Shown in pieces: positions 3,557-23,619 of a stretch of 35,369 bases of DNA. The notes beneath the pieces were generated by a model. That model saw nothing but the letters and a program-made list of their open reading frames with translations, was not told the origin of the DNA and ran no database searches. This DNA comes from Phycisphaerae bacterium (lineage in GTDB: Bacteria; Planctomycetota; Phycisphaerae; Sedimentisphaerales; Anaerobacaceae), in assembly GCA_029858035.1 (NCBI GenBank), contig JAOUFU010000005.1, positions 1 to 35,369 on the forward strand, given 5' to 3'. Numbering within the stretch: position 1 is the stretch's first letter; each line of letters begins with the position of its first letter. A program made the position numbers and the translations under genes.

Positions 3557-4474
3557 ATGGATACAAGAATTTTTAAATTATCCTCCAAAAATCCTATCAT
3601 TTCACCATTGGACCTTCCGTTTCAGGCCGCCGCCGTACTCAATCCAGGCGCTACCGAACAAGGCGATGACGTTGTCTTGCTTCTTCGCATCGAAGACCAT
3701 GCCGGATTCTCAAATCTCCATATAGCACGCAGCAAAAATGGCGTTACTGATTGGAAAGTCGATCCAAAACCGATACTTGCCTACGGCGAGCCAGACTGGC
3801 AGTATGAAGAATGGGGATGTGAAGATGGACGAATCACATTTATACCGGAAGATAAATGCTGGTATATTGCTTATACCGCCTATTCTCCTAAAGGTGCTGC
3901 AGTGGCATTAGCACGTAGCTGTGACCTCGTTGTGGCCGAGCGAATCGGACTCATTTTGTCGCCCAGTAATAAAGACGCCGTTCTATTTCCTCAGAAATTC
4001 AACGGCCGATGGGCTGTACTCCACCGTCCTGATGCCGGCGGTGACGAACATATCTGGTCAGCCTACTCGCCTGATTTGATCCATTGGGGCGAGCCACACT
4101 CAGTGTTGCCAGAAGAAGGCGGCGCAGCATGGGATAATATTAAAGTCGGCGCAGGAGCGCCACCTATTCTTGTCGAAAAGGGTTGGCTGCTTATATATCA
4201 TGGTGTTAAGGGCTATGGAGGCCATCTGGTCTACCGCGTTGGCGTGGCCTTGCTGGACAAGGATAAGCCTTATAAGGTTATTGCTCGGTCGCGCGAGTGG
4301 ATATTCCAGGCTGAGGCTCCATATGAGCTTTCTGGTTTAACGCCAAATGTTGTCTTCCCAACCGGATTGCTGCTTCGCGGCGACGAGTTGTGGATGTACT
4401 ATGGAGCCGCCGACACTTGTGCTTGTCTGGCCACAGCCAAACTATACGATGTTCTGGCAATGTTGGAGAAATAA
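3557..4474 (+). CDS. GH130 family glycoside phosphorylase/hydrolase
   Basis: A 305-residue soluble protein with the GH130 fold signature (five-bladed beta-propeller). The motif WGCEDGRITFI places the conserved catalytic Asp at about residue 90, and AYTAYSPKGAAVALARS, HRPDAGG and GAGAPPI follow in family order. Members phosphorolyse beta-1,4-mannooligosaccharides or related beta-mannosides, giving mannose-1-phosphate. The exact substrate cannot be assigned, and some members are hydrolases. AAGG lies just upstream of the ATG. It sits 30 bases after the H+-ATPase and 14 before the Mg2+-ATPase, so it is probably co-transcribed with them. No signal peptide is seen, consistent with cytosolic action alongside the HAD phosphatase and phosphoketolase. 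Confidence 0.9.
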   Translation: MDTRIFKLSSKNPIISPLDLPFQAAAVLNPGATEQGDDVVLLLRIEDHAGFSNLHIARSKNGVTDWKVDPKPILAYGEPDWQYEEWGCEDGRITFIPEDKCWYIAYTAYSPKGAAVALARSCDLVVAERIGLILSPSNKDAVLFPQKFNGRWAVLHRPDAGGDEHIWSAYSPDLIHWGEPHSVLPEEGGAAWDNIKVGAGAPPILVEKGWLLIYHGVKGYGGHLVYRVGVALLDKDKPYKVIARSREWIFQAEAPYELSGLTPNVVFPTGLLLRGDELWMYYGAADTCACLATAKLYDVLAMLEK

Positions 4475-4488
4475 AGCGTTAAGGTAAC

Positions 4489-7014
4489 ATGGACGAGCGA
4501 ACACTTACATTTTGGAGTATGCAAACTACCAAGCTATTGGGTTTCCTTAGTACTTCAGAGAATGGATTAACAGATGACGAGGCAAAACTGCGTCTAATTA
4601 AGCACGGGGGAAATATCATATCTGCTCCCAGGTATTCAAGCAATTTAAGAATTTTCGTCTCTCAGTTTAAAAGTCCTATTATTCTCATTCTCATTTTCGC
4701 GTCGTTATTATCCTTTTTCCTTCATGATGCCGCCGATGCTCTGATTATACTTGCAATTGTTTTGATCAGTGGTTTACTTGGTTTCTGGCAGGAACGTGGA
4801 GCAGTTGGCGCAGTTAACAAATTGCTTAAAATGGTGCAAACAAAAACAGTCGTCTTGAGGGACGGACAAGAAAAAGAAATCGCTGCCGGTGAAGTTGTTC
4901 CTGGTGATATAGTTATCCTCTCCGCAGGTGCCAGTATACCGGCAGATTGCTTTATCTTGGAATCGAAAGACCTGTTCATCAATGAAGCGGCTTTGACAGG
5001 AGAAACATACCCTGTAGAAAAAACAGGCGGAATTCTGCCGCTCCAAACACCCTTGGCTCAACGTAAAAATGCCCTTTTCATGGGCACTTATGTCGTCAGC
5101 GGTACTACGCGGGCCGTGGTCGTCCGAACAGGAAAAGAGACTGAATTCGGACGAGTTTCCGAACGACTGAAGCTCAAATCTCCGGAAACAGATTTTGAAC
5201 ACGGGCTAAGACGATTCGGATATTTTTTGATGGAGGTTACTTTACTGCTGGTAATTGTGATCTTTGCTGTAAATGTGTATTTAGCAAGACCTTTTTTGGA
5301 CGCTTTTCTTTTTTCCCTTGCTCTTGCGGTGGGCCTGACACCACAGCTATTACCAGCGATTGTAAGCGTAAATCTTGCCCACGGTGCGCGGCGAATGGCA
5401 CAGAAGAAAGTAATCGTCAAGCGTCTTGCTTCTATCGAGAACTTTGGCAGCATGAATGTGCTTTGCTCCGACAAAACCGGTACTCTGACCGAAGGGCTTG
5501 TGACTTTGAACTCTTTCGTGGATGTCGATGGGAATGAAAATGAAAAGATACTTCTGTATTCATATCTGAATTCCTTTTTTGAAAAAGGCTTCACAAATCC
5601 GATGGATGAAGCTGTTCGCAGGTACAAACAGTTTCAAATCGAAGGTTTTCAAAAACTGGACGAAGTGCCCTATGACTTTATTCGTAAGCGATTAAGCGTG
5701 TTGGTATCTTATGAAGACAAAAAAAACATCATTATTACGAAAGGTGCGTTAGTTAATGTTCTGAATGTGTGCACAAAGGCTGAGCTTTCTGATGGCTCTC
5801 AAACTGACATATCAACTGTAAGAAAGAAAGTAATTGAACGTTTTGAGGAACTTGGCGACAAAGGATTCCGTGTATTGGCAATAGCATACCGAAATCCTGG
5901 TGATAAGCTGCGGATCGGCAGAGAAGACGAGACAGGTATGATATTTTTGGGCTTGCTTACTTTCTTTGATCCTCTCAAGCAGGGTCTAACCGAGACCATA
6001 GAGAGATTAAAGCAGCTTGGCATCTTACTAAAGCTAATTACAGGAGACAACAGGCATGTGGCAACGTATATAGGCCGGCAAATAGGTCTACAGAAACCGA
6101 ACATCATCACAGGCTCTGAACTTCGCCAAATTAGTGATGACGCCATTCTTCAGCAAGTGAACCAGGTAGATATTTTCGCAGAAGTTGAACCAAACCAGAA
6201 AGAGCGGATCATTTTGGCCCTTAGAAAATCAGGTAATATTACAGGTTTTATGGGGGATGGTATAAATGATGCTTCCGCACTGCATGCGGCGGATGTTGGT
6301 ATTTCCGTGGACGGTGCTGTTGATGTAGCCAAAGAAGCGGCTGACATCGTATTGCTTGAGAAAGACCTTGCAGTGCTTCTGGAGGGTGTGCAGGATGGTA
6401 GAGCAACCTTCGCCAATACTCTCAAGTATGTATTTATGGCGACCAGCGCTAATTTTGGAAACATGTTCAGTATGGCGGGTGCTTCACTTTTCCTGCCGTT
6501 TTTACCACTACTGCCAAAGCAGATTCTGTTGGTCAACCTGATGACTGATTTACCGGAAATGGCCATCGCCACCGACAGTATTGATTCAGAGCTGCTCGAA
6601 AAGCCCCACAAATGGGACATAAAATTCATACGCAAATTCATGATTACATTTGGTCTTTTAAGCTCCATTTTCGACTTTTTAACTTTCGGCACGCTTATAC
6701 TTATCCTTCATGCTTCGCCGCAACAGTTGAGAACAGGATGGTTTATCGAGTCAATTGTTTCGGCGGCACTTGTTGTGATGGTTATTCGCACACGCAGGCC
6801 ATTTTTCAAAAGTAAGCCCGGGAAATATTTGATAGCAGCAACTTTGGCAATAGTTGTAATTGCATTGCTGTTGCCGTTTACCCGAGTGGCTGCGATTTTT
6901 GGATTCCAGCAGCTTCAAGTACACTTCCTGGCTTTTCTGGCGGTGATCGTAGCAGCTTACATCGGTTGTGCAGAAGTTGCTAAAAGAGTGTTTTATGATA
7001 AAATCAGGTGGTAA
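4489..7014 (+). CDS. mgtA: Magnesium-translocating P-type ATPase (type IIIB, MgtA/MgtB-like)
   Basis: An 841-residue membrane pump. Motifs: TGET at about 170-173, DKTGTLT with phosphorylated Asp at about 328, KGALVNV, TGDN, and MGDGINDASAL from about 588. The C-terminal membrane half contains MTDLPEMAIATDSID and a WDIKFIRKFM loop, both typical of MgtA/MgtB importers. These take Mg2+ (and sometimes Ni2+) into the cytoplasm. In enterics MgtA activity is stimulated by cardiolipin, which is notable because a cardiolipin synthase closes this cluster. Length fits the family (about 850-900), slightly short at the N-terminus. Spacing to its neighbours is 14 and 29 bases, supporting one operon. No mgtA-type riboswitch leader fits the short upstream gap. 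Confidence 0.92.
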   Translation: MDERTLTFWSMQTTKLLGFLSTSENGLTDDEAKLRLIKHGGNIISAPRYSSNLRIFVSQFKSPIILILIFASLLSFFLHDAADALIILAIVLISGLLGFWQERGAVGAVNKLLKMVQTKTVVLRDGQEKEIAAGEVVPGDIVILSAGASIPADCFILESKDLFINEAALTGETYPVEKTGGILPLQTPLAQRKNALFMGTYVVSGTTRAVVVRTGKETEFGRVSERLKLKSPETDFEHGLRRFGYFLMEVTLLLVIVIFAVNVYLARPFLDAFLFSLALAVGLTPQLLPAIVSVNLAHGARRMAQKKVIVKRLASIENFGSMNVLCSDKTGTLTEGLVTLNSFVDVDGNENEKILLYSYLNSFFEKGFTNPMDEAVRRYKQFQIEGFQKLDEVPYDFIRKRLSVLVSYEDKKNIIITKGALVNVLNVCTKAELSDGSQTDISTVRKKVIERFEELGDKGFRVLAIAYRNPGDKLRIGREDETGMIFLGLLTFFDPLKQGLTETIERLKQLGILLKLITGDNRHVATYIGRQIGLQKPNIITGSELRQISDDAILQQVNQVDIFAEVEPNQKERIILALRKSGNITGFMGDGINDASALHAADVGISVDGAVDVAKEAADIVLLEKDLAVLLEGVQDGRATFANTLKYVFMATSANFGNMFSMAGASLFLPFLPLLPKQILLVNLMTDLPEMAIATDSIDSELLEKPHKWDIKFIRKFMITFGLLSSIFDFLTFGTLILILHASPQQLRTGWFIESIVSAALVVMVIRTRRPFFKSKPGKYLIAATLAIVVIALLLPFTRVAAIFGFQQLQVHFLAFLAVIVAAYIGCAEVAKRVFYDKIRW

Positions 7015-14691: not shown

Positions 14692-17292
14692 ATGATCCAG
14701 AGAGCCCCTGCATTCGCGTTGGCCCTGTTCGCTGCTTCGGCGGCTCTTGCAGAAGCTCCCTATCCTGCAAGTGCGGTTGTTACCGATGCTGTGTTGCACC
14801 CCTGGTCCACTAATACACATCCGACCGACGTCGCCAAGTCGCACGTCGAGGAGATCACCGCTTCGATGGGGGCGAGACACAAGTACACGGTCCTCCAAAG
14901 CGGCACAATGGATGGCCGCAATTGCCGGTCGCCTATGGGCTGCGGGATAGCGAGGGAAGGGGCCTTCCTCCAGACCTGGGAGTCCAACCGCTCGGTTCGG
15001 ATGGAAAACGTCGGTGACGTCGACGTGGTCAACCCGTGGCTTTCCAATGGCCGCAACAACTTCCGCAGCGTCGAAGAGATTGTCTCTTCCGCTGTCTCAC
15101 CGGGCATGACGGATGCGGACAAGGCTTTTGCCCTCTGGTTCCAGGAGATCCGGTATCGACACCATTCCCCGGGCGACAACAGTGAGCTGGGCGACCCTGT
15201 GAAGGTCTTCAATATCTATGGGTACAACACCTGCGGCAATGACTCCATCTGTTTGGCTACGCTATGGCGCGAGGCCGGTTTCAAAGTGGCGCCGGCACGG
15301 GCGCTGGGCCACTGCATCTCGCAGGCTTTCTATGACGGCGGCTGGCACTTCTATGACGGCGACATGCACTCCGTCTACCTCCTGCGAGACAACCAGACTG
15401 TAGCCGGCGAACAGGACATCGTGCGCGACCACGACTTAATCAAGCGGACCCATTCCAAGGGAATCCTGTTTCCGGATACATGGTGGGCCGAGCCGGAAAT
15501 GTGCTCCATGTATTTTTTCGAGGGACAGGTCGCAGGCGAACGCTCCGGCAAGTCCGATACCACAATGAACATGGTCCTGCGTCCAGGCGAGGCGCTCACA
15601 TGGCGCTGGGGACAGCTCCGCCCGCTCAAGTATCACGGGATGCTGCACGTGACCCCCACGTACGAAAGCGCGATCTACAATGGCCTTTGGGAGTATCGCC
15701 CGGATTTCTCTAAGGTCGTGTGGCGCAAAGGGGCTGCGGCTGTGGAGAATATCACGATGGCGCCGGACGGCTTGGCTGCCTACGAGGGCAAGACCGGCAC
15801 GATCGTCTGGTCGATGCGCAGCCCGTACGTCTTCGTGGGAGGCCGCCTCAACGTAGAGGGTACGGGGGCCCGGTTCTTCATTTGCCAGGATGGCAAGACC
15901 TGGAGGCCAGCGCAAGACAACATTGATAAGTTCTTTTCGATTGTTGGTCCGGCCTGCTACGATTACCAGCTCAAGTGCCGGCTGGAAGGGCCATCGCGGC
16001 TTCGGCACTTGGCGATAATCAATGACGTGCAGATGGCCCCTTTGGCGCTGCCGGAAATGGCCGTGGGCGAGAATGTTTTCACGTACAGTGACCAGTCCAC
16101 AGGCGACCGCAAGGTGCGGATTACTCACAAATGGGTCGAGCGGTCGGCCTCAAGACCGCCATTAGCGCCGGTCGGCGCCGTCCGGCCGCTCGACGAAGGC
16201 GAAGCGAACGGAACGGACGTCGTCTTTCAGTGGACGGCTTCCAGCGACCCCGACGGCGATAAAATTGCCGATTACCAGTTTGAACTGTCCGCCCGCGCCG
16301 ATATGAAGTGGCCGCTCTCGATGAGCTTCTACAAGCTTATCTCACGAACCGCCGAAGCCAGTAAGGAAAAGGACAAGGTCACCGGCAAGGAGAGCATCAC
16401 AGTCAAGGCCCAGTATACCCTGCCCCAGTCGGGTCTGCTGATGCCGGATCGCACGTACTACTGGCACGTGCGGGCACAGGACGACAAGGGCGTGTGGGGG
16501 CCCTGGAGCAAGACTTGGCGATTCACTCCCCATGGCCCCGCTCACCCGCTCGATTTGACCGTGGACTACGACCCGGCCAAGAGTGTAGGCACTCTCCGTT
16601 GGAAAGCCAACCCGGTGGGTCGCAGGCCGGTCAAGTACCGGGCCTACGGCAGTGACGAGAAGGGCTTCACGATAGCTGACCAGAGGCACCAGAGCGTGGT
16701 GGGCGTGACCAAGGAGGAGATGGCTGACTGGAATCCGTGGTTCCCGGCGAACTTCATCGCCGAGACCTCGGCTGCGGAACTGGCTGTGCTTGGCATCGAC
16801 GTGGATTTGTCTGCTGCCAACAAGACCTACTACCGTGTGGTGGCGGTTGACGAGCAGGGCAAGCGCAGCGGGCCGTCTGACTTCGCCGTTGCTCCACGGC
16901 CCGTTATCTACAGTAAGCCGATAGTTACCGCCCAGGTTGGCACCGAGTACCGTTATAAGGTACTCGCCAATCGATCTCTGGGTGACCTCAGTTCGCGGAT
17001 GGCGGACGACCGGCAGACAAGCGGCTACTTCGACATCGAGAAGCCCCGATTCACGCTTACCAAGGGGCCCGCGTGGCTCAAAATCGACGAAGCGGCCGGC
17101 GTGCTCTCAGGCACGCCAGATGTGCCGGGCAGGGCCGACGTCATCGTCACTATCACCATTGATCGCCAGGTGCGGAAGCTCGATGAGGCGGTCCTGCGTT
17201 GGGGCGGCGAAAAGGTCCTTTCTGTGGATATTGAGCGAGTCGGCGTGACAACCCAGAAGTTCGTCATCGATGTTGTGAGGAAAGAGCCGTGA
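14692..17292 (+). CDS. Exported transglutaminase-like domain protein with FN3-like and putative Ig modules
   Basis: An 866-residue secreted protein. A Sec signal (MIQRAPAFALALFAASAALA) precedes a transglutaminase/papain-fold region at about 70-270 with Cys181 in YNTCGND, His207 in ALGHC and Asp222 in WHFYDGD, a plausible catalytic triad. A middle region of about 270-500 has no clear family. About 495-620 reads as a fibronectin-III-like module (DPDGDKIADYQFELS, TYYWHVRAQDDKGVWGPWS). A second FN3-like stretch follows, and the C-terminus has the putative-Ig pattern GPAWLKIDEAAGVLSGTPDVPG. Transglutaminase-like folds act as proteases, amidases or crosslinkers, so the reaction is open. GAGAGGTG precedes the start. 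It is convergent with the esterase gene and probably acts at the cell surface. Confidence 0.75.
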   Translation: MIQRAPAFALALFAASAALAEAPYPASAVVTDAVLHPWSTNTHPTDVAKSHVEEITASMGARHKYTVLQSGTMDGRNCRSPMGCGIAREGAFLQTWESNRSVRMENVGDVDVVNPWLSNGRNNFRSVEEIVSSAVSPGMTDADKAFALWFQEIRYRHHSPGDNSELGDPVKVFNIYGYNTCGNDSICLATLWREAGFKVAPARALGHCISQAFYDGGWHFYDGDMHSVYLLRDNQTVAGEQDIVRDHDLIKRTHSKGILFPDTWWAEPEMCSMYFFEGQVAGERSGKSDTTMNMVLRPGEALTWRWGQLRPLKYHGMLHVTPTYESAIYNGLWEYRPDFSKVVWRKGAAAVENITMAPDGLAAYEGKTGTIVWSMRSPYVFVGGRLNVEGTGARFFICQDGKTWRPAQDNIDKFFSIVGPACYDYQLKCRLEGPSRLRHLAIINDVQMAPLALPEMAVGENVFTYSDQSTGDRKVRITHKWVERSASRPPLAPVGAVRPLDEGEANGTDVVFQWTASSDPDGDKIADYQFELSARADMKWPLSMSFYKLISRTAEASKEKDKVTGKESITVKAQYTLPQSGLLMPDRTYYWHVRAQDDKGVWGPWSKTWRFTPHGPAHPLDLTVDYDPAKSVGTLRWKANPVGRRPVKYRAYGSDEKGFTIADQRHQSVVGVTKEEMADWNPWFPANFIAETSAAELAVLGIDVDLSAANKTYYRVVAVDEQGKRSGPSDFAVAPRPVIYSKPIVTAQVGTEYRYKVLANRSLGDLSSRMADDRQTSGYFDIEKPRFTLTKGPAWLKIDEAAGVLSGTPDVPGRADVIVTITIDRQVRKLDEAVLRWGGEKVLSVDIERVGVTTQKFVIDVVRKEP

Positions 17293-17489: not shown

Positions 17490-18428
17490 TCAGTGCATTT
17501 GCTTGGGCGGCTTGAGGAATCCCTGATGCCGCAGCCAAGTGGCACATGCCTGCGTCCACGTGGAACACGGTTGGTCGCTCGTACGGACGCCGAAGTCATG
17601 TGCGGCCGTCGCATAGATGTGCAGTTCCGCCGGGATGTTTGCTTTCTTCAGCGCAAGGTACATCAACACACTGTGATCCGGTGGGCTGATGATATCGTCC
17701 CCGCCGTGCGCGAGGAAGATCGGGGGCGTTCTGGGCGGGATACGCAGGCCGGGAGCGATCTCATCCTTGTCCTTTGCCTTCAGGTAGCCCGAATAGACTC
17801 CAATGGCAAAGTCGGGCCGGCAACTGATTTTGTCCACGTCATCGATTGGCTCGTAGGTTCGCCGGTCAAAGCTCGTTGCTGTCGCAATAGCCAGATGGCC
17901 GCCGGCCGAGAAACCTACCATTCCTATCTGCTGCGGCTGGATGCCCCACTGACTCGCTCTGCTCCGCACCAGGCTGACGGCCCGCTGTGCATCCTGGAGC
18001 GGGCGGCGGGCCGGCTCGCCCTTGGGCTCATCGGGTCGGCGCGGCACACGATACTTGAGGATGATGCCGGTGGCGCCAATTGAGTTCAACCAGGCGGCCA
18101 CTTCCTCGCCTTCCAGTTGCCAGTAGAGGTCCCAGTAGCCACCCCCGGGGCAGATCAGCACCGCGGTACCGGTGTCCTTGTCCTTCGCCGGCCGATAGAT
18201 CGTCAGTGTCGGTTTGGTGACGTTGGTCACCAGCTTCGTCGACTCGGTGACCTCGACCTGCTTGCGGTCCAGCTTCGGCGACATGCGGAACTTTTCCTCG
18301 CCGATGTTGCCGTTTTCGTCCGGAGCCGTGCCCGGCCAAATCTCAACGACCAGCGGCTTGTCAGACCCAACCGCCGACCAAGCCGCGCACAAACAGGTGA
18401 CCAGAGAAACAATCAATGTGAGTCGCAT
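17490..18428 (-). CDS. Exported alpha/beta hydrolase, acetyl-xylan-esterase-like
   Basis: A 312-residue secreted serine esterase. The track's 488-residue version adds 176 residues that read antisense through the neighbour. I start at 18428, where MRLTLIVSLVTCLCAAWSAVGS forms a Sec signal with GAGGA upstream. The oxyanion region is ICPGGGYW (about 92-99), the nucleophile Ser174 is in GFSAGGH, the acid is in HGGDD (about 241-245), and His277 is in ATAAHDFG. This layout is that of the BD-FAE/acetyl-xylan esterase-like group in polysaccharide-degrading bacteria, which remove acyl groups from hemicellulose. The substrate is inferred. It is the last gene of the minus-strand operon, 56 bases after the amidohydrolase paralogue. 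Confidence 0.87.
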   Translation of the reverse strand: MRLTLIVSLVTCLCAAWSAVGSDKPLVVEIWPGTAPDENGNIGEEKFRMSPKLDRKQVEVTESTKLVTNVTKPTLTIYRPAKDKDTGTAVLICPGGGYWDLYWQLEGEEVAAWLNSIGATGIILKYRVPRRPDEPKGEPARRPLQDAQRAVSLVRSRASQWGIQPQQIGMVGFSAGGHLAIATATSFDRRTYEPIDDVDKISCRPDFAIGVYSGYLKAKDKDEIAPGLRIPPRTPPIFLAHGGDDIISPPDHSVLMYLALKKANIPAELHIYATAAHDFGVRTSDQPCSTWTQACATWLRHQGFLKPPKQMH

Positions 18429-18484
18429 AACTGAACAATCCTCATTTCTTTGCATTGCTCGATCCTTTCGGCGTTCGCCCCGTG

Positions 18485-19261
18485 CTACAACCGCAGCCAG
18501 GTCATCGCGTTCTGCGAGCGGATCTTTTCCTTGTCGGCCTCGCTCGCGTCCAATACTTCCAGCTTCACTAATGCGGGGTCCGGATAGTTGAAGGGCATCC
18601 CTGTCCCGAACATCACACGCTCGGCGCCCAGGTTGGCTATGAGCTGCCCAAGCTCGTTCGCCAGCACGGCACTCAAGCGGGACAGCTCGATGGCATAATT
18701 GGACGGCAGACCGTTGTCCTTCCGCCCGAGCGGGCACCCTGTGTAGCCGATGCCGTTCAGCAGGATAAAGCGTCCTTTTGGGTGAGCTTTCACCAACTCG
18801 ACAATCTCCTCCAGGGGCACGTCGGGGACGTTCAGCAGCCAGCTCCGCTGGCGGTTGTCCTCCACGCGGATGGGAATGGAGATGACCATGCCTCGCTCGG
18901 TCGCGGCGTTCACGAGCTCCCGGCAGCACGGGCTGGAGAGCTGATAGTTGTGCCACTTGGGATAGAGGCGCAGGCCCGTCATGCCGAACTCCTCGTGGCA
19001 GATTTTCAGATCATCCTGCCAGCCGGCGTAGAACGGATTGATGACGGCAAATGGAATCAGCCGGTCGCCATGACCACGGACCTCCTCCACCACCTCCTCA
19101 TTGCCGGCCTGTGCGTTACGGTAGGTAATGGCGCTGGCGCTGGAGACGACCGCCTTGTCGATTTGTTTGGAGTCCATCAGCGCGAGCAGCGACGCGGCCG
19201 TGTTGTGCCGCAGCAGGCGGAACGCAAAATGGCCGAGATAAGCATTCACGTCAACGATCAT
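18485..19261 (-). CDS. Amidohydrolase-2-like paralogue lacking metal ligands
   Basis: A 258-residue TIM-barrel protein of the amidohydrolase superfamily by overall layout: MIVDVNAYLG at the start, GMTGLRLYPKW in the middle, and ERVMFGTGMPF near the end. The metal-binding positions seem to be lost. The N-terminal HxH is NAY, the strand-5/6 histidines are replaced (ISIPIRVED, FILLNG), and the terminal Asp of FGSDxP is Gly in FGTGMP. It has no signal peptide. Its ATG overlaps the stop of the upstream amidohydrolase (ATGA), so translation is coupled. Likely a catalytically inactive or re-purposed partner; an unusual metal-free activity is the alternative. Confidence 0.75.
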   Translation of the reverse strand: MIVDVNAYLGHFAFRLLRHNTAASLLALMDSKQIDKAVVSSASAITYRNAQAGNEEVVEEVRGHGDRLIPFAVINPFYAGWQDDLKICHEEFGMTGLRLYPKWHNYQLSSPCCRELVNAATERGMVISIPIRVEDNRQRSWLLNVPDVPLEEIVELVKAHPKGRFILLNGIGYTGCPLGRKDNGLPSNYAIELSRLSAVLANELGQLIANLGAERVMFGTGMPFNYPDPALVKLEVLDASEADKEKIRSQNAMTWLRL

Positions 19262-20202
19262 AATTTTCCCCTCCGCAAGAGCCTCGTCATGTTCCCGCTC
19301 AGGATCTTCTGCTTGTCCTGTGCGCTCAGGTTCGCCCCGCGAATCTTGCCCACCCCTGCTGTCATGGACGAGTCACAGCCAAAGACGAGCCGATCCACCC
19401 CTACTACTGCTGCTGCCATCTCCACTGTGCCTTCATCTGTTACGCTGCCGCTGGTATCGAGCAAGACGTTCGGCGCGTGGCGCAGAACCTTGATCGTCCA
19501 CTCCCAATCGCCCCCGCCGGAGATGTGCGCGCAGATGAGCATGGCCTTCGGGTAGCGGCGAGATAGTTCAGCAAGGTGCCCACCGTCGGACATACGCGGC
19601 TGGTCATCAACGAAGTAGTGGGAGTGCGAGGCGTGCTGCAGGATCGGCACGCCCAGCTCAATCGCCAGCTCCACAATGGGAAAGACCACCGGCTCCGTGC
19701 AGGTGTACTCGTTGTAGAGCTTGATGCCGATAAACCCACGATCCACCACGCAGCGGCGGATTTCCTCCAACGCCTCTCGGCCGTAGCCGGGATTTACATA
19801 GCAGTAGCCGAGCACCCGATCGGGGAACCGGCGTATCCCGTCGGCCGTCCACCGGTTGCATTCCTGAAAGCCCTCGGCGGTCGCAGGCCGGCGCGGTGTG
19901 AGGATCGAGCAGCACAATTGGTCGATTCCCAGCTTGTCCGCCGCCTCAATGAGCTTGCGGTCGTCCGCTTCCCATGTCGTGCGGCTCCGATGAGTCAAGT
20001 GCGCATGACAGTCGATGACCTTGCCTTTGGGGAGTCGGTTGTTCGACGTGCCAGGCACAGGCTTCTCGACGGCCGCGCATGCTAACGGCAGTGTCGCTAC
20101 TCCTATCGCCACGGCCGTGGCGGCCGAACCCTTCAGGAACGTTCGTCGCGAGATGCGCGGCTGAGGTATCGGTGGACCCGAGGTTATCTTAGGGATAGCC
20201 AT
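19258..20202 (-). CDS. Tat-exported amidohydrolase-2 family metal-dependent hydrolase
   Basis: A 314-residue protein with an N-terminal twin-arginine signal, ISRRTFLKGSAATAVAIGVATLPLACA, at about 17-43; the Cys after LPLA could be a lipobox. The catalytic barrel retains VIDCHAHLTH (H66/H68), LQHASHSHYF, ICAHISGGGDW and VFGCDSS, the full ligand set of amidohydrolases. Family members hydrolyse lactones, amides or decarboxylate aromatic acids; in carbohydrate loci they are often lactonases. The start at 20202 has AGGAGG eight bases upstream; the track's longer start reads the upstream repeat. Its first 14 bases overlap the 3' end of the BNR gene, and its stop overlaps the next gene. Confidence 0.87.
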   Translation of the reverse strand: MAIPKITSGPPIPQPRISRRTFLKGSAATAVAIGVATLPLACAAVEKPVPGTSNNRLPKGKVIDCHAHLTHRSRTTWEADDRKLIEAADKLGIDQLCCSILTPRRPATAEGFQECNRWTADGIRRFPDRVLGYCYVNPGYGREALEEIRRCVVDRGFIGIKLYNEYTCTEPVVFPIVELAIELGVPILQHASHSHYFVDDQPRMSDGGHLAELSRRYPKAMLICAHISGGGDWEWTIKVLRHAPNVLLDTSGSVTDEGTVEMAAAVVGVDRLVFGCDSSMTAGVGKIRGANLSAQDKQKILSGNMTRLLRRGKL

Positions 20203-22618
20203 GTGTTTCTGCCTCCTGTCCATATGTTGTATGTCGTATCTCGTATATCGCATCTCGTATCTCGACCGACGACGGACGATTCATCTCTCGTGCCTCGTCT
20301 CTCATCCCTCGTACACGGTGCGGCACGGCTGGGCCTCGCCAGATGCTGCCGCCGAAAGTGGTGACGTAGATCAGACCGTCGTCGGATGGTTCGAATGTCA
20401 CTCGCTGGATGTTCGAGAAGGGCAAATCGTCGAACGCCTGCCACGTTTGACCGTTGTCCTGCGAGAGCCACAGACCTGCGCCGGCAGCGCCCTCGGTGAG
20501 TGTCATGTAAATCCATCCATCGTGCTTTGGGTGGAAATAGCCACCGAAGGTTTGTTGGGCCTGGCGGCCAATGCGCTGCCAGGTTTGGCCGCCGTCCTGC
20601 GTGCAGTAGAGACCGCCGGACTGATCACCCCCGCCCGCGTCGCACACGCCCACCAGAATAATGTTGCTGTTCTGCGGGTGGACCGCAAAGTCCTTGGGAT
20701 ACAGAAAAAGCTGGGATGCGTTGACCTTCTCCCAGGTCTCGGCGCCGTCCCTGGACCGGTACAGCCCGACTCCCTCGCTCATGAGCGGCTTTCCCCGGGC
20801 GGGACGCATGGCGCAGATCATCGCAAAGAGTGTTCCATCCTTGTGCAGAATCACACGGGAGACGCGGATGTTCAGCGGATGGCCCAGGCCATTTTTCTTC
20901 AGCGTCCAGGTCTTGCCGTCATCGGTCGATTTGTATACGCCTTCCATGAAGAGGCCGGCGTAGAGCGTGCGGGTGTTCTTGGGGCTGCGGGGGTCGAGCA
21001 CGATGGAGGTCACCGGCCGCAGCGGCAGACCCTGCGCTTCCGGCTTCCAGGAAGCGCCGAAGTCATGGGAGATGCACACGCCGCCGGGCCCGTTGTGGCT
21101 GTGACGCTCGGAAATGATGTTGTCGTTTGGGATGTCGTGCACGTTGGAAAACGCACCCCACATTTTGCCTGGGATGTCCGGGTCGAACGCGGTCTCGTAG
21201 CAGGTGTTTCGCCATGGGGCCCAGGTGTTCTTGTCCCACCAAATCCAGGACTTTCCGCTATCGATGGACCGAGCGAAGCCGATGTCCGTATAGGCGATGT
21301 AATGACGGTTGGTTTCGAACGGGTCGATATAGTAGTTCCACGTCGTGGTGACGACAAGGCCGGTACACACCCATGCGCTGCCCGGCTTGGGTTGCTGGCC
21401 GGCAGCGGGGTAGGTATCACCGTTGAACCACGTGTCGCCCCCATTATGGGTAGCGTAGGACTGGCTCCACACCAGGATCAACCGGCTCGGGTCACTGTTG
21501 CAGATCGCAGCGCCGAAGGGGGTATCGCCTCCTTTGTACGATTGTCCCGACGAGGCGGTGACGTAGTTGGGAGCCACGTTGTATTGTTGAAAACGCGGGT
21601 CTTGGAAGAAAGTCGCTTGCCAGTTGTCACCACTGTCATCGCTGCGATAGACTGTCTCATGATGTGGCGGATGAAAGCCCGTGCTTGTATTCGTGACGTA
21701 AACTGTCAACGGTCTAGCGTCAGTGGCAAGAACCTGCTTGTACTGTGAGATAGGACCGTAAGACCACCGGTCGGCTTTCGTTGTGTCCACATTGATGCCG
21801 CGGCCCATCGCCGACTGCCAGGTCTGCCCGCGGTCCCGGGAACGGTAGACGCCCCCCCGCAAGACGCCGTTTTCCAGTTTGCTGGTCACAGTGCAGTAGA
21901 GCATGGTGCCCTCCGAATCGGAGCCTCCGCCGAAACCCTTGATCTCTTTCCAAGGCAGCCCATCGGTTCTCTCCACCCAGGTCTGTCCGCCATCATCAGA
22001 TCGCCAAATGTTCTTGTCCATGGCGGCGAACATCGTTCGGCCTTTGTTTGTGCGGTCGAAGTGGAATCCGATCACTCGGCCCTGCGGGCCCGGACAGGAG
22101 GTCCAGGTAAAGCCCGCATCGCGTGACAGCCGGCACCGGCCGTTGCGGGTACCCACGAGCATGATGCTTGGGTTTGAGGAATTGACCGCGATTTCACCGG
22201 AGAGGGAATCCTTGAGATCGCCGATGGGCGTAAAGGTCCGGCCACGGTCGCGGCTGATCTTCAGCCGGCCCGAGGAGGAGGCATAGACTATATTGGCATC
22301 GGACGGGTGAAAGCCCGGGCGACATTGGGTGTCGGTGCGCAACTGGGCATGGTGAATCATCCGCCAGTTGTGGCCGCCGTCCTCGGAGATGTAGGCGGCA
22401 CTCATATCGCAGTTGAGCATCATCAGGTTAGGGTCCGATGGCGAGATCGCGGGACTGAACATGCCGCCTCCGCCGGACAGGCCTAAGGGTTCCCAATTGC
22501 AGATTTCGGATTGCGTATTGTGAATTAGCGGCCCGCCTGATCCACAATCAGCCCACGCCAAAATTGCTGCCAGTAAGCAAAGGCAATTTACAGATGAGAA
22601 TAATATGCGATCTTTCAT
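20189..22618 (-). CDS. Exported BNR/sortilin-type beta-propeller protein
   Basis: An 809-residue secreted protein. I prefer the ATG at 22618 (GAGGAA upstream, ATGA overlap with the isomerase stop) over the GTG at 22624. A Sec signal (ILFSSVNCLCLLAAILAWADC) is followed by about 13 BNR/Asp-box motifs of the form SxDxGxTW, such as SEDGGHNW, SDDGGQTW, STDDGKTW, TQDGGQTW and SQDNGQTW. They are spread over the whole length, which fits a double seven-bladed propeller like GH74 or sortilin. No clear sialidase FRIP or catalytic set was seen, so glycan binding or cleavage is open. The natural end appears to be YVTTFGGSIWRGPAVP; the last 40 or so residues are translated heptad repeats. Confidence 0.85.
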   Translation of the reverse strand: MKDRILFSSVNCLCLLAAILAWADCGSGGPLIHNTQSEICNWEPLGLSGGGGMFSPAISPSDPNLMMLNCDMSAAYISEDGGHNWRMIHHAQLRTDTQCRPGFHPSDANIVYASSSGRLKISRDRGRTFTPIGDLKDSLSGEIAVNSSNPSIMLVGTRNGRCRLSRDAGFTWTSCPGPQGRVIGFHFDRTNKGRTMFAAMDKNIWRSDDGGQTWVERTDGLPWKEIKGFGGGSDSEGTMLYCTVTSKLENGVLRGGVYRSRDRGQTWQSAMGRGINVDTTKADRWSYGPISQYKQVLATDARPLTVYVTNTSTGFHPPHHETVYRSDDSGDNWQATFFQDPRFQQYNVAPNYVTASSGQSYKGGDTPFGAAICNSDPSRLILVWSQSYATHNGGDTWFNGDTYPAAGQQPKPGSAWVCTGLVVTTTWNYYIDPFETNRHYIAYTDIGFARSIDSGKSWIWWDKNTWAPWRNTCYETAFDPDIPGKMWGAFSNVHDIPNDNIISERHSHNGPGGVCISHDFGASWKPEAQGLPLRPVTSIVLDPRSPKNTRTLYAGLFMEGVYKSTDDGKTWTLKKNGLGHPLNIRVSRVILHKDGTLFAMICAMRPARGKPLMSEGVGLYRSRDGAETWEKVNASQLFLYPKDFAVHPQNSNIILVGVCDAGGGDQSGGLYCTQDGGQTWQRIGRQAQQTFGGYFHPKHDGWIYMTLTEGAAGAGLWLSQDNGQTWQAFDDLPFSNIQRVTFEPSDDGLIYVTTFGGSIWRGPAVPHRVRGMRDEAREMNRPSSVEIRDAIYEIRHTTYGQEAETHGYP
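20221..20314 (-). repeat. Heptanucleotide repeat arrays embedded at a gene end
   Basis: On the minus strand, GAGATAC GAGATGC GATATAC GAGATAC GACATAC is followed by AACATAT. A second array upstream reads GAGGGAT GAGAGAC GAGGCAC GAGAGAT. The consensus is near GAGAYAC with a strict 7-base period, and a roughly 20-base spacer separates the arrays. Because 7 is not a multiple of 3, it encodes a seven-residue repeat of the EIRDAIY type at the C-terminus of the BNR protein. It ends just before the AGGAGG of the next gene. Confidence 0.75.
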
Positions 22619-23619
22619 ATCCACTTCCTCATTATCCGCAGGTACTCGCGGCAGGTTTCTCGTATGTCGGGATCGCCGGGATGCTGGTCCTGCTCGATGG
22701 AGGCGAAGCCGTTGAAGCCGACCTGTTTGAGGGCCGTGATAATCGCCTGGATGTCCATCACGCCCCGACCGAACGCCGGGAACTGTCGCATCAGGCCGTC
22801 GATATCGCGCATATGCACGTTCATCAGGTGCCTGCCGACTTTATGTATCGCGAGCGGAGGGTATTCCCGCTGGAGCAGTGTCCAGCCCGCGTCAAGATTG
22901 TAGCCCAAATCGTCGTCGCGAATCTGGTCCCACAGCCGCAGGAACGAAGCCGCATCCGGGACTAAGCAATGCGTGTGCTGCTCGATGGAGAACTTAAGGC
23001 CGTGGGCTTTCGCCCGTGACAGGCAGGCTTTGGTAGTCTCTACGTAGGCGTTCCAAACCCGGTCCCAATCGAATTCTTCCGCAATGTCGATGTGATACTT
23101 CTGTCCTGGTTTAGGATTGGTGATCTCGTAGTAACGGGGCAGATACCCCGTCGGCCCTTTCAGTTCGCGAGCCCAGGGAGCAACGATATTGATGATCGGA
23201 GCCCCCAGCTTCTTGCCGATTCGGCAGCCCGCCTCGAAGTAGGCCAGTGCCTGCTCGCGAGCGGCTCGATCCGTGCTCGACAGGTCCTCGACCACCGGCT
23301 GGAAAAGAACGAATTGCGACACAAGCAACTTATTTTGCCGGAGTCTTTTATTGAGCTGGTAGATCCTTGTGTCGGTCCAGAAATCCTTGAGATCCCTTCG
23401 CGCCGTCACGATCAACTCGACGCCGCCAAAGCCCAGCTCGCCGATGATATCCAGGGCCGGCTCGGGGTCCGCAGCGGGACCCAGACTGTGAAAACACCAA
23501 CTCAGGCAGCCAACTTTAGGCTTGCTCTGTACATGCGATTGCGGTTGCGCTGCTGCCGACATCAACGGTAGTGTGGATGTCGCCAGCGCGACATTTCTAA
23601 GGAATTGACGGCGATTCAT
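22615..23619 (-). CDS. Tat/Sec-exported sugar phosphate isomerase/epimerase-like TIM barrel
   Basis: A 334-residue xylose-isomerase-like TIM-barrel protein. MNRRQFLRNVALATSTLPLMSAAAQ is a short twin-arginine-type signal, unusual for a family that is mostly cytosolic but common in Planctomycetota. Metal and substrate positions expected of the family are present: GGVELIV, APIINIVAP, FSIEQHTH, GYNLDAGW, MNVHMRDID and FASIEQDQH. Members isomerise or epimerise sugars, keto-sugars or inositols; the substrate is unknown. GGAGG lies 12 bases before the ATG. It is the first gene of the minus-strand operon, and its stop overlaps the BNR start by the ATGA arrangement. Confidence 0.87.
   Translation of the reverse strand: MNRRQFLRNVALATSTLPLMSAAAQPQSHVQSKPKVGCLSWCFHSLGPAADPEPALDIIGELGFGGVELIVTARRDLKDFWTDTRIYQLNKRLRQNKLLVSQFVLFQPVVEDLSSTDRAAREQALAYFEAGCRIGKKLGAPIINIVAPWARELKGPTGYLPRYYEITNPKPGQKYHIDIAEEFDWDRVWNAYVETTKACLSRAKAHGLKFSIEQHTHCLVPDAASFLRLWDQIRDDDLGYNLDAGWTLLQREYPPLAIHKVGRHLMNVHMRDIDGLMRQFPAFGRGVMDIQAIITALKQVGFNGFASIEQDQHPGDPDIRETCREYLRIMRKWI

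Follow-up and report, generated by a model that had tools for sequence, protein, structure and literature searches.

A pair of overlapping amidohydrolase genes

The window, by which we mean the whole 35,369-nucleotide stretch of contig JAOUFU010000005.1 from a Phycisphaerae bacterium, carries on its minus strand (17490-23619) a tight run of five genes joined by short overlaps or gaps: an AP_endonuc_2 barrel, a BNR protein, the two related amidohydrolase-type proteins considered here and an esterase. Parts of this five-gene order recur in several Phycisphaerae loci. The neighbours (the AP_endonuc_2 barrel, the BNR repeat protein and the esterase, which is of the BD-FAE type) suggest a role in carbohydrate breakdown. 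A common substrate was also sought among them; the recurrent neighbours differ among subfamilies and define no single pathway. On the opposite strand, at 14692-17292, lies a gene for a secreted-looking protein of 866 aa with Ig-like repeats, the N-terminal half of which is similar by eye to a transglutaminase-like core, though unrecognised by Pfam. The features of the gene pair are as follows.

19258..20202, minus strand: metal-site member (the Tat protein), an Amidohydro_2 protein of 314 aa with a Tat signal (PF04909 92.8 bits, TAT_signal 25.2 bits, six ligand positions)
18485..19261, minus strand: metal-less member (the small protein), an Amidohydro_2 barrel of 258 aa without signal peptide (PF04909 48.1 bits, barrel predicted by AF2)
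19258..19261, minus strand: ATGA, stop/start overlap of the two genes
20086..20154, minus strand: core of the Tat signal, SRRTFLK and the hydrophobic stretch, residues 17-39 (TIGR01409 at 17-39, PF10518 at 17-36)
20212..20217, minus strand: AGGAGG, probable ribosome-binding sequence for the Tat gene, judged from sequence
19270..19274, minus strand: GGAGG within the Tat gene, probable ribosome-binding sequence for the small gene; relatives have a similar stretch

The open reading frames, their strand and the ATGA coupling proposed in a preliminary description of this DNA are borne out by the sequence. Both proteins pass the PF04909 gathering cut-off of 26.4 bits, the Tat protein over residues 63-310, and direct BLASTP aligns them with 22% identity over 271 columns (E 2e-8). 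TAT_signal exceeds its Pfam cut-off in the Tat protein and no signal is detected by Pfam in the small protein, in agreement with what had been read by eye. The proposal that the fold survives in the ligand-less copy is supported by its PF04909 match and by an AF2 monomer model, which predicts a full 8-strand barrel (pLDDT 81, pTM 0.84) with low-confidence loops at residues 13-18, 133-142 and 223-227, pLDDT falling below 50 at 133-142. In Foldseek comparisons both proteins adjoin gamma-resorcylate decarboxylase and ACMSD (E 2e-12 to 2e-13).

The ligand positions of the Tat protein, H66, H68, K161, H190, H226 and D277, align with N6, Y8, R98, P130, N169 and G221 of the small protein. These positions and the conserved motifs of the metal-less family (119 members, with 111 adjoining partners; see below) lie at the following places.

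19999..20007, minus strand: HAH, metal ligands H66 and H68 (invariant in orthologues of the Tat protein; His at both in 97 of 111 partners)
19720..19722, minus strand: K161 of the Tat protein, a lysine conserved in the barrel, equivalent to R98 of the small protein (Lys in 96 of 111)
19633..19635, minus strand: H190, strand-5 metal ligand (109 of 111)
19525..19527, minus strand: H226, strand-6 histidine (110 of 111)
19372..19374, minus strand: D277, strand-8 aspartate (Asp in 96 of 111; His in the degenerate YTYHHH sub-clade and its sister lineage)
19238..19246, minus strand: NAY in place of HAH, N6 and Y8 of the small protein (first residue Asn in 109 of 119)
18944..18970, minus strand: RLYPKWHNY, R98 to Y106, near-invariant motif of the metal-less family (P101 100%, H104 99%, Y106 95%, R98 92% of 119)
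18851..18862, minus strand: E134-D135-N136-R137, near-invariant loop after strand 5 in the metal-less family (E134 92%, D135 96%, R137 99% of 119)
18755..18757, minus strand: N169, at the position of the strand-6 histidine (Asn in 106 of 119)
18599..18601, minus strand: G221, at the position of the strand-8 aspartate (Gly in 30, His in 63, Tyr in 20 and Asp in none of 119)

The Tat protein has the complete ligand set for a mononuclear metal (HxH, strand-5 His, strand-6 His and strand-8 Asp), invariant across 17 orthologues; its export signal, HAH motif, barrel histidines and terminal Asp are all as first described. The small protein has N, Y, P, N and G at these places, and the alignment puts NAY, IPIRV, LLNG and FGTGMP where the preliminary description had placed them, every expected ligand being replaced. 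Ligands at shifted positions appear in none of the alignments made. The loss extends across the family: in 103 of the 119 metal-less members all six ligand residues are gone and in the other 16 a single one is left, and all six (HHKHHD) are kept in 94 of the 111 partners. The replacements are non-random, with the first His changed to Asn in 109 members, the Lys to Arg in 109 and the strand-6 His to Asn in 106. Beyond the ligand positions, P101, H104, Y106, E134, D135, R137, R15, N54 and W81 are near-invariant. Many invariant residues sit on barrel-mouth loops, several of them unplaced by AF2 in the monomer, and binding of the partner or of a ligand may bring order to these low-confidence loops.

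Pairing, phylogeny and selection

The genome of the window holds one such pair. In a genome collection, 19 loci with 51-93% identity were found in Planctomycetota, Verrucomicrobiota (L016, L018 and L019 only) and Armatimonadota, and a Tat-type gene lies immediately upstream wherever the flanks are complete, usually with the 4-base overlap (most of L003-L021). The small type was found in 31 of the 294 genomes searched in the phylum and in 89 of the 199 searched in one class, the latter count including weak matches. Once neighbourhoods had been fetched and duplicates removed, 119 distinct metal-less members remained, and in 111 of these an Amidohydro_2 partner lies no more than 1.2 kb away. Synteny in other Planctomycetota, suggested earlier as a check, is thus preserved, and the pairing withstands the proposed counter-test, that the second gene might be common without the first, since orphans are rare and mostly lie at contig ends or have a partner elsewhere. 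Of the eight partnerless members, three (L072, L073, L131) are at or near contig ends; L095 has a partner-type gene farther off; L128 and L135 have a partner of the matching sub-clade elsewhere in the genome; and the genomes of L136 and L148 contain a partner-type gene. Apart from these eight, in L149 the adjoining gene scores only 48 bits and a matching partner is found elsewhere in the genome.

In a tree of 39 pairs and unpaired relatives, a single branch (support 91, by a quick method and with some long branches) separates all metal-less from all metal-bearing members, a split that agrees with a single ancient duplication. Purifying selection acts on the two genes to a similar extent, dN/dS being about 0.09-0.16 for each when the window is compared with eight relatives. 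An apparently stronger conservation of the small gene was confined to close relatives and disappeared when the signal peptide was excluded and all pairs were compared. The distance matrices of the two members correlate at 0.88 over 109 pairs, against a permutation maximum of 0.09, which fits both co-evolution and shared species history. Loss of ligands is not decay in this family, a point that goes beyond the preliminary description: the replacements are fixed (N, R, N), a separate polar set is near-invariant, and decay is ruled out by a dN/dS of about 0.1.

Export signals, fusions and a partner without its metal site

Tat signals were scored in 109 pairs by our own motif and hydrophobicity rule rather than a trained predictor. 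The signal belongs to the metal-bearing protein in 24 pairs (L015 added by eye) and to the metal-less one in 22; 63 pairs have none, and no pair has two. With 4.8 doubly signalled pairs expected, the absence of any has a P of 0.002 without phylogenetic correction, and the tree requires no fewer than 10 changes to account for the placement of the signal. The pattern known from Tat hitchhikers, a signal on one subunit only, is thus seen in 46 pairs, and two signals occur in none of the 109. Export is not general, since 63 pairs have no detected Tat signal. The Tat system carries folded complexes on the signal of one subunit (PMC4273604, PMC10924467), so a signal that switches partners and is never doubled fits the co-export of a preformed complex.

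The two halves also occur as single chains. Six haloarchaeal proteins of ~560 residues, from five plasmid records (WP_254810888.1, L195:4143-5837, is one of the proteins), join an N-terminal HHKHHD half to a C-terminal half of the metal-less type, which keeps N6, N54, W81, P101, H104, Y106, D135 and R137 and, in most, R15, R98, E134 and N169; the metal half comes first, as in the gene order of the window. One of these plasmid records (NZ_CP119797.1, L197:2317-5834) has the fusion in two tandem copies and has five matching places. Seven planctomycete loci are fused in the opposite order. Such fusions are the strongest evidence that both halves work in one place. The preliminary description had left two possibilities for the unsignalled protein, that the pair is divided between compartments or that it is carried out together; the second is favoured and the first disfavoured because the signal moves between partners, is never on both, and single-chain forms exist.

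A further sub-clade bears on the role of the small member. In 13 pairs (L058, L059, L061, L062, L075, L127, L134, L143, L144, L146, L150, L160, L161), the seven planctomycete fusions among them, the partner reads YTYHHH at the six positions, HxH, Lys and Asp being lost; the seven fused loci have one Tat signal per chain. In at least two genomes of this sub-clade the matching partner is encoded at a distant place in the genome. The loss of the metal site looks stepwise, because the partner in the sister lineage (pairs L162 and L169) is HHKHHH. The polar residues of the small member are all kept in the 13 pairs, with the exception of N169 in one. As they persist beside partners devoid of the metal site, pure service to the partner's metal chemistry would not be expected; the small subunit probably does more than provide a scaffold, and a metal-free ligand-binding or catalytic role is a serious possibility.

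A probable two-part enzyme and its relation to known systems

Taken together, long pairing, occasional fusion and no more than one export signal per pair strongly suggest that the pair works as one two-part enzyme. We consider it probable that the two proteins form an obligate heteromeric Amidohydro_2 enzyme, that one of its subunits is a conserved metal-free barrel, and that signal-bearing pairs are exported by Tat hitchhiking; contact between the subunits and their co-export are what we infer from the patterns above. The enzyme would belong to the ACMSD and gamma-resorcylate decarboxylase-like branch of Amidohydro_2. The Tat-signalled subunit would hold a conventional mononuclear metal site and presumably act as a hydrolase or lyase-type enzyme on a small organic acid or a derivative of a sugar. 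Its smaller companion would be a homologous barrel that gave up its metal in one ancient duplication and retained a polar set at the barrel mouth (N6, R15, R98, H104, Y106, E134, D135, R137, N169). By binding the metal subunit it would probably help to form or cap the active site and to hold the ligand, as Arg239 does in ACMSD, where this residue comes from the adjacent subunit, completes the site and is essential (PMC11650718). In signal-bearing pairs, both folded subunits would be exported together as a hitchhiker complex on a single signal peptide. The pseudoenzyme partner proposed at the outset is thereby strongly supported by adjacency, dN/dS, trees, archaeal fusions and the limit of one Tat signal per pair. 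The word inactive does not carry over with it: polar residues that are fixed, and kept even beside a partner without a metal site, leave the loss of the canonical site as the only part established.

A possible but clearly less probable explanation is that the small protein catalyzes a reaction of its own without metal, at a new site built from N6, R98, H104, Y106, E134, D135 and R137, and so performs a second or linked step in a bifunctional pair. The polar set is near-invariant in the 119 loci, is kept in the YTYHHH pairs as described and is largely kept in the archaeal fusions, and PF04909 includes cofactor-less members (PMC10811679). It matches no known catalytic motif, however, and a conserved subunit contact or a ligand-binding regulatory site would predict identical residues. 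To a similar, minority degree of belief, the metal-less barrel could be the conserved working half, with a metal-independent active or ligand site, and the YTYHHH pairs would then have dispensed with metal altogether.

That the pair represents two independent enzymes of one pathway, co-transcribed, making no contact and with the unsignalled one cytoplasmic, appears improbable. The operon context with exported sugar-related proteins (the BNR repeat protein, the esterase and the AP_endonuc_2 barrel) would suit it, but the fusions in haloarchaea and planctomycetes, a Tat signal that switches partner and is on both in none, and duplicates that remain paired rather than dispersed all argue against it. 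Metal binding by the small protein through other positions, such as the near-invariant H104 and D135, is quite unlikely, as these residues occupy canonical ligand positions in no alignment and the near-invariant R98 and R137 fit anion binding better than metal. A decaying duplicate without function, to which the loss of all canonical ligands might point, is scarcely credible, since dN/dS is about 0.1 and the protein is conserved in several phyla and in archaea as well.

Heteromeric PF04909 enzymes and amidohydrolase-fold pseudo-subunits are already known. The closest likeness is to AibH1H2, the 2-aminoisobutyric acid hydroxylase of Rhodococcus and a PF04909 heterotetramer (PMC7782822), which depends on a PF04909 subunit that is itself non-catalytic (PMC7782822, PMC10401708, PMC12141560). 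Here too, two paralogous PF04909 barrels are encoded by adjacent genes, and the AibH heteromer combines a catalytic with a required non-catalytic subunit (PMC7782822, PMC10401708). AibH1H2 differs in that AibH1 has a mononuclear and AibH2 a dinuclear metal and in the use of ferredoxin and reductase in a monooxygenase system, whereas the pairs described here have a second subunit without canonical ligand and a near-obligate pairing, and include fusions and members with Tat signals. The AibH1H2 chains are not matched by the metal-less family profile at E up to 1, and in the alignment the small protein has no ligands like those of the AibH1 mononuclear site (D24, H26, H201, E255, D328; PMC7782822), which places it outside an AibH1-like group. 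A dinuclear oxygenase of the AibH2 or PtmU3 kind was considered and rejected for the Tat protein. In AibH2 the second-metal motif after the strand-8 Asp is D337-x2-H340-x-D342 (PMC12141560); the Tat protein reads D277-S-S-M-T-A, without second-metal residues, and the neighbours scanned include no Rieske gene.

The enzymes ACMSD and gamma-resorcylate decarboxylase, which the Tat protein resembles in fold and in metal ligand pattern, are known as homomers with metal in every subunit, and the window pair differs from them in this respect. The pseudo-dihydroorotase (pDHO) of the Pseudomonas ATCase has an amidohydrolase fold and is inactive yet required by its partner, and a homologous fungal domain is reported to be without zinc ligands (PMC7053772). 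It differs from the small protein in that its partner is a transcarbamoylase rather than an active paralogue, and in belonging to another superfamily branch. The Tat hitchhikers HybOC and PaoABC are alike in that one signal peptide carries a folded complex, and unlike the window pair in that their partners are not paralogues; movement of the signal between partners is not described for them in the available part of the source (PMC4273604). PF04909 is very large, yet the literature search found no pseudoenzyme pairs in it beyond AibH1H2, and a near-obligate pair with a wholly metal-less member, a mobile Tat signal and archaeal fusions, as delineated here from sequence, appears to have no description in the literature searched.

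The two-part amidohydrolase looks widespread, from haloarchaea to Planctomycetota, with the pseudo-subunit apparently kept since an ancient duplication. Its split and fused forms, the Tat signal on either partner and the stepwise loss of the partner's metal site amount to natural experiments. In the records seen, the annotation "amidohydrolase family protein" hides a member or half without a catalytic metal site. A remote pair on a Klebsiella plasmid (CP067510.1, L200:807-1532 and 4001-4726) lies in a PTS operon that also encodes an ADP-ribosylglycohydrolase; of the two proteins, one is HHKHHD and the other is degenerate but retains the strand-8 Asp, and no match to this pair was found in E. 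coli genomes. More distant Amidohydro_2 pairs at L066, L068, L091 and L097, in which a weakly related second protein is without several ligands, are possibly further pair families.
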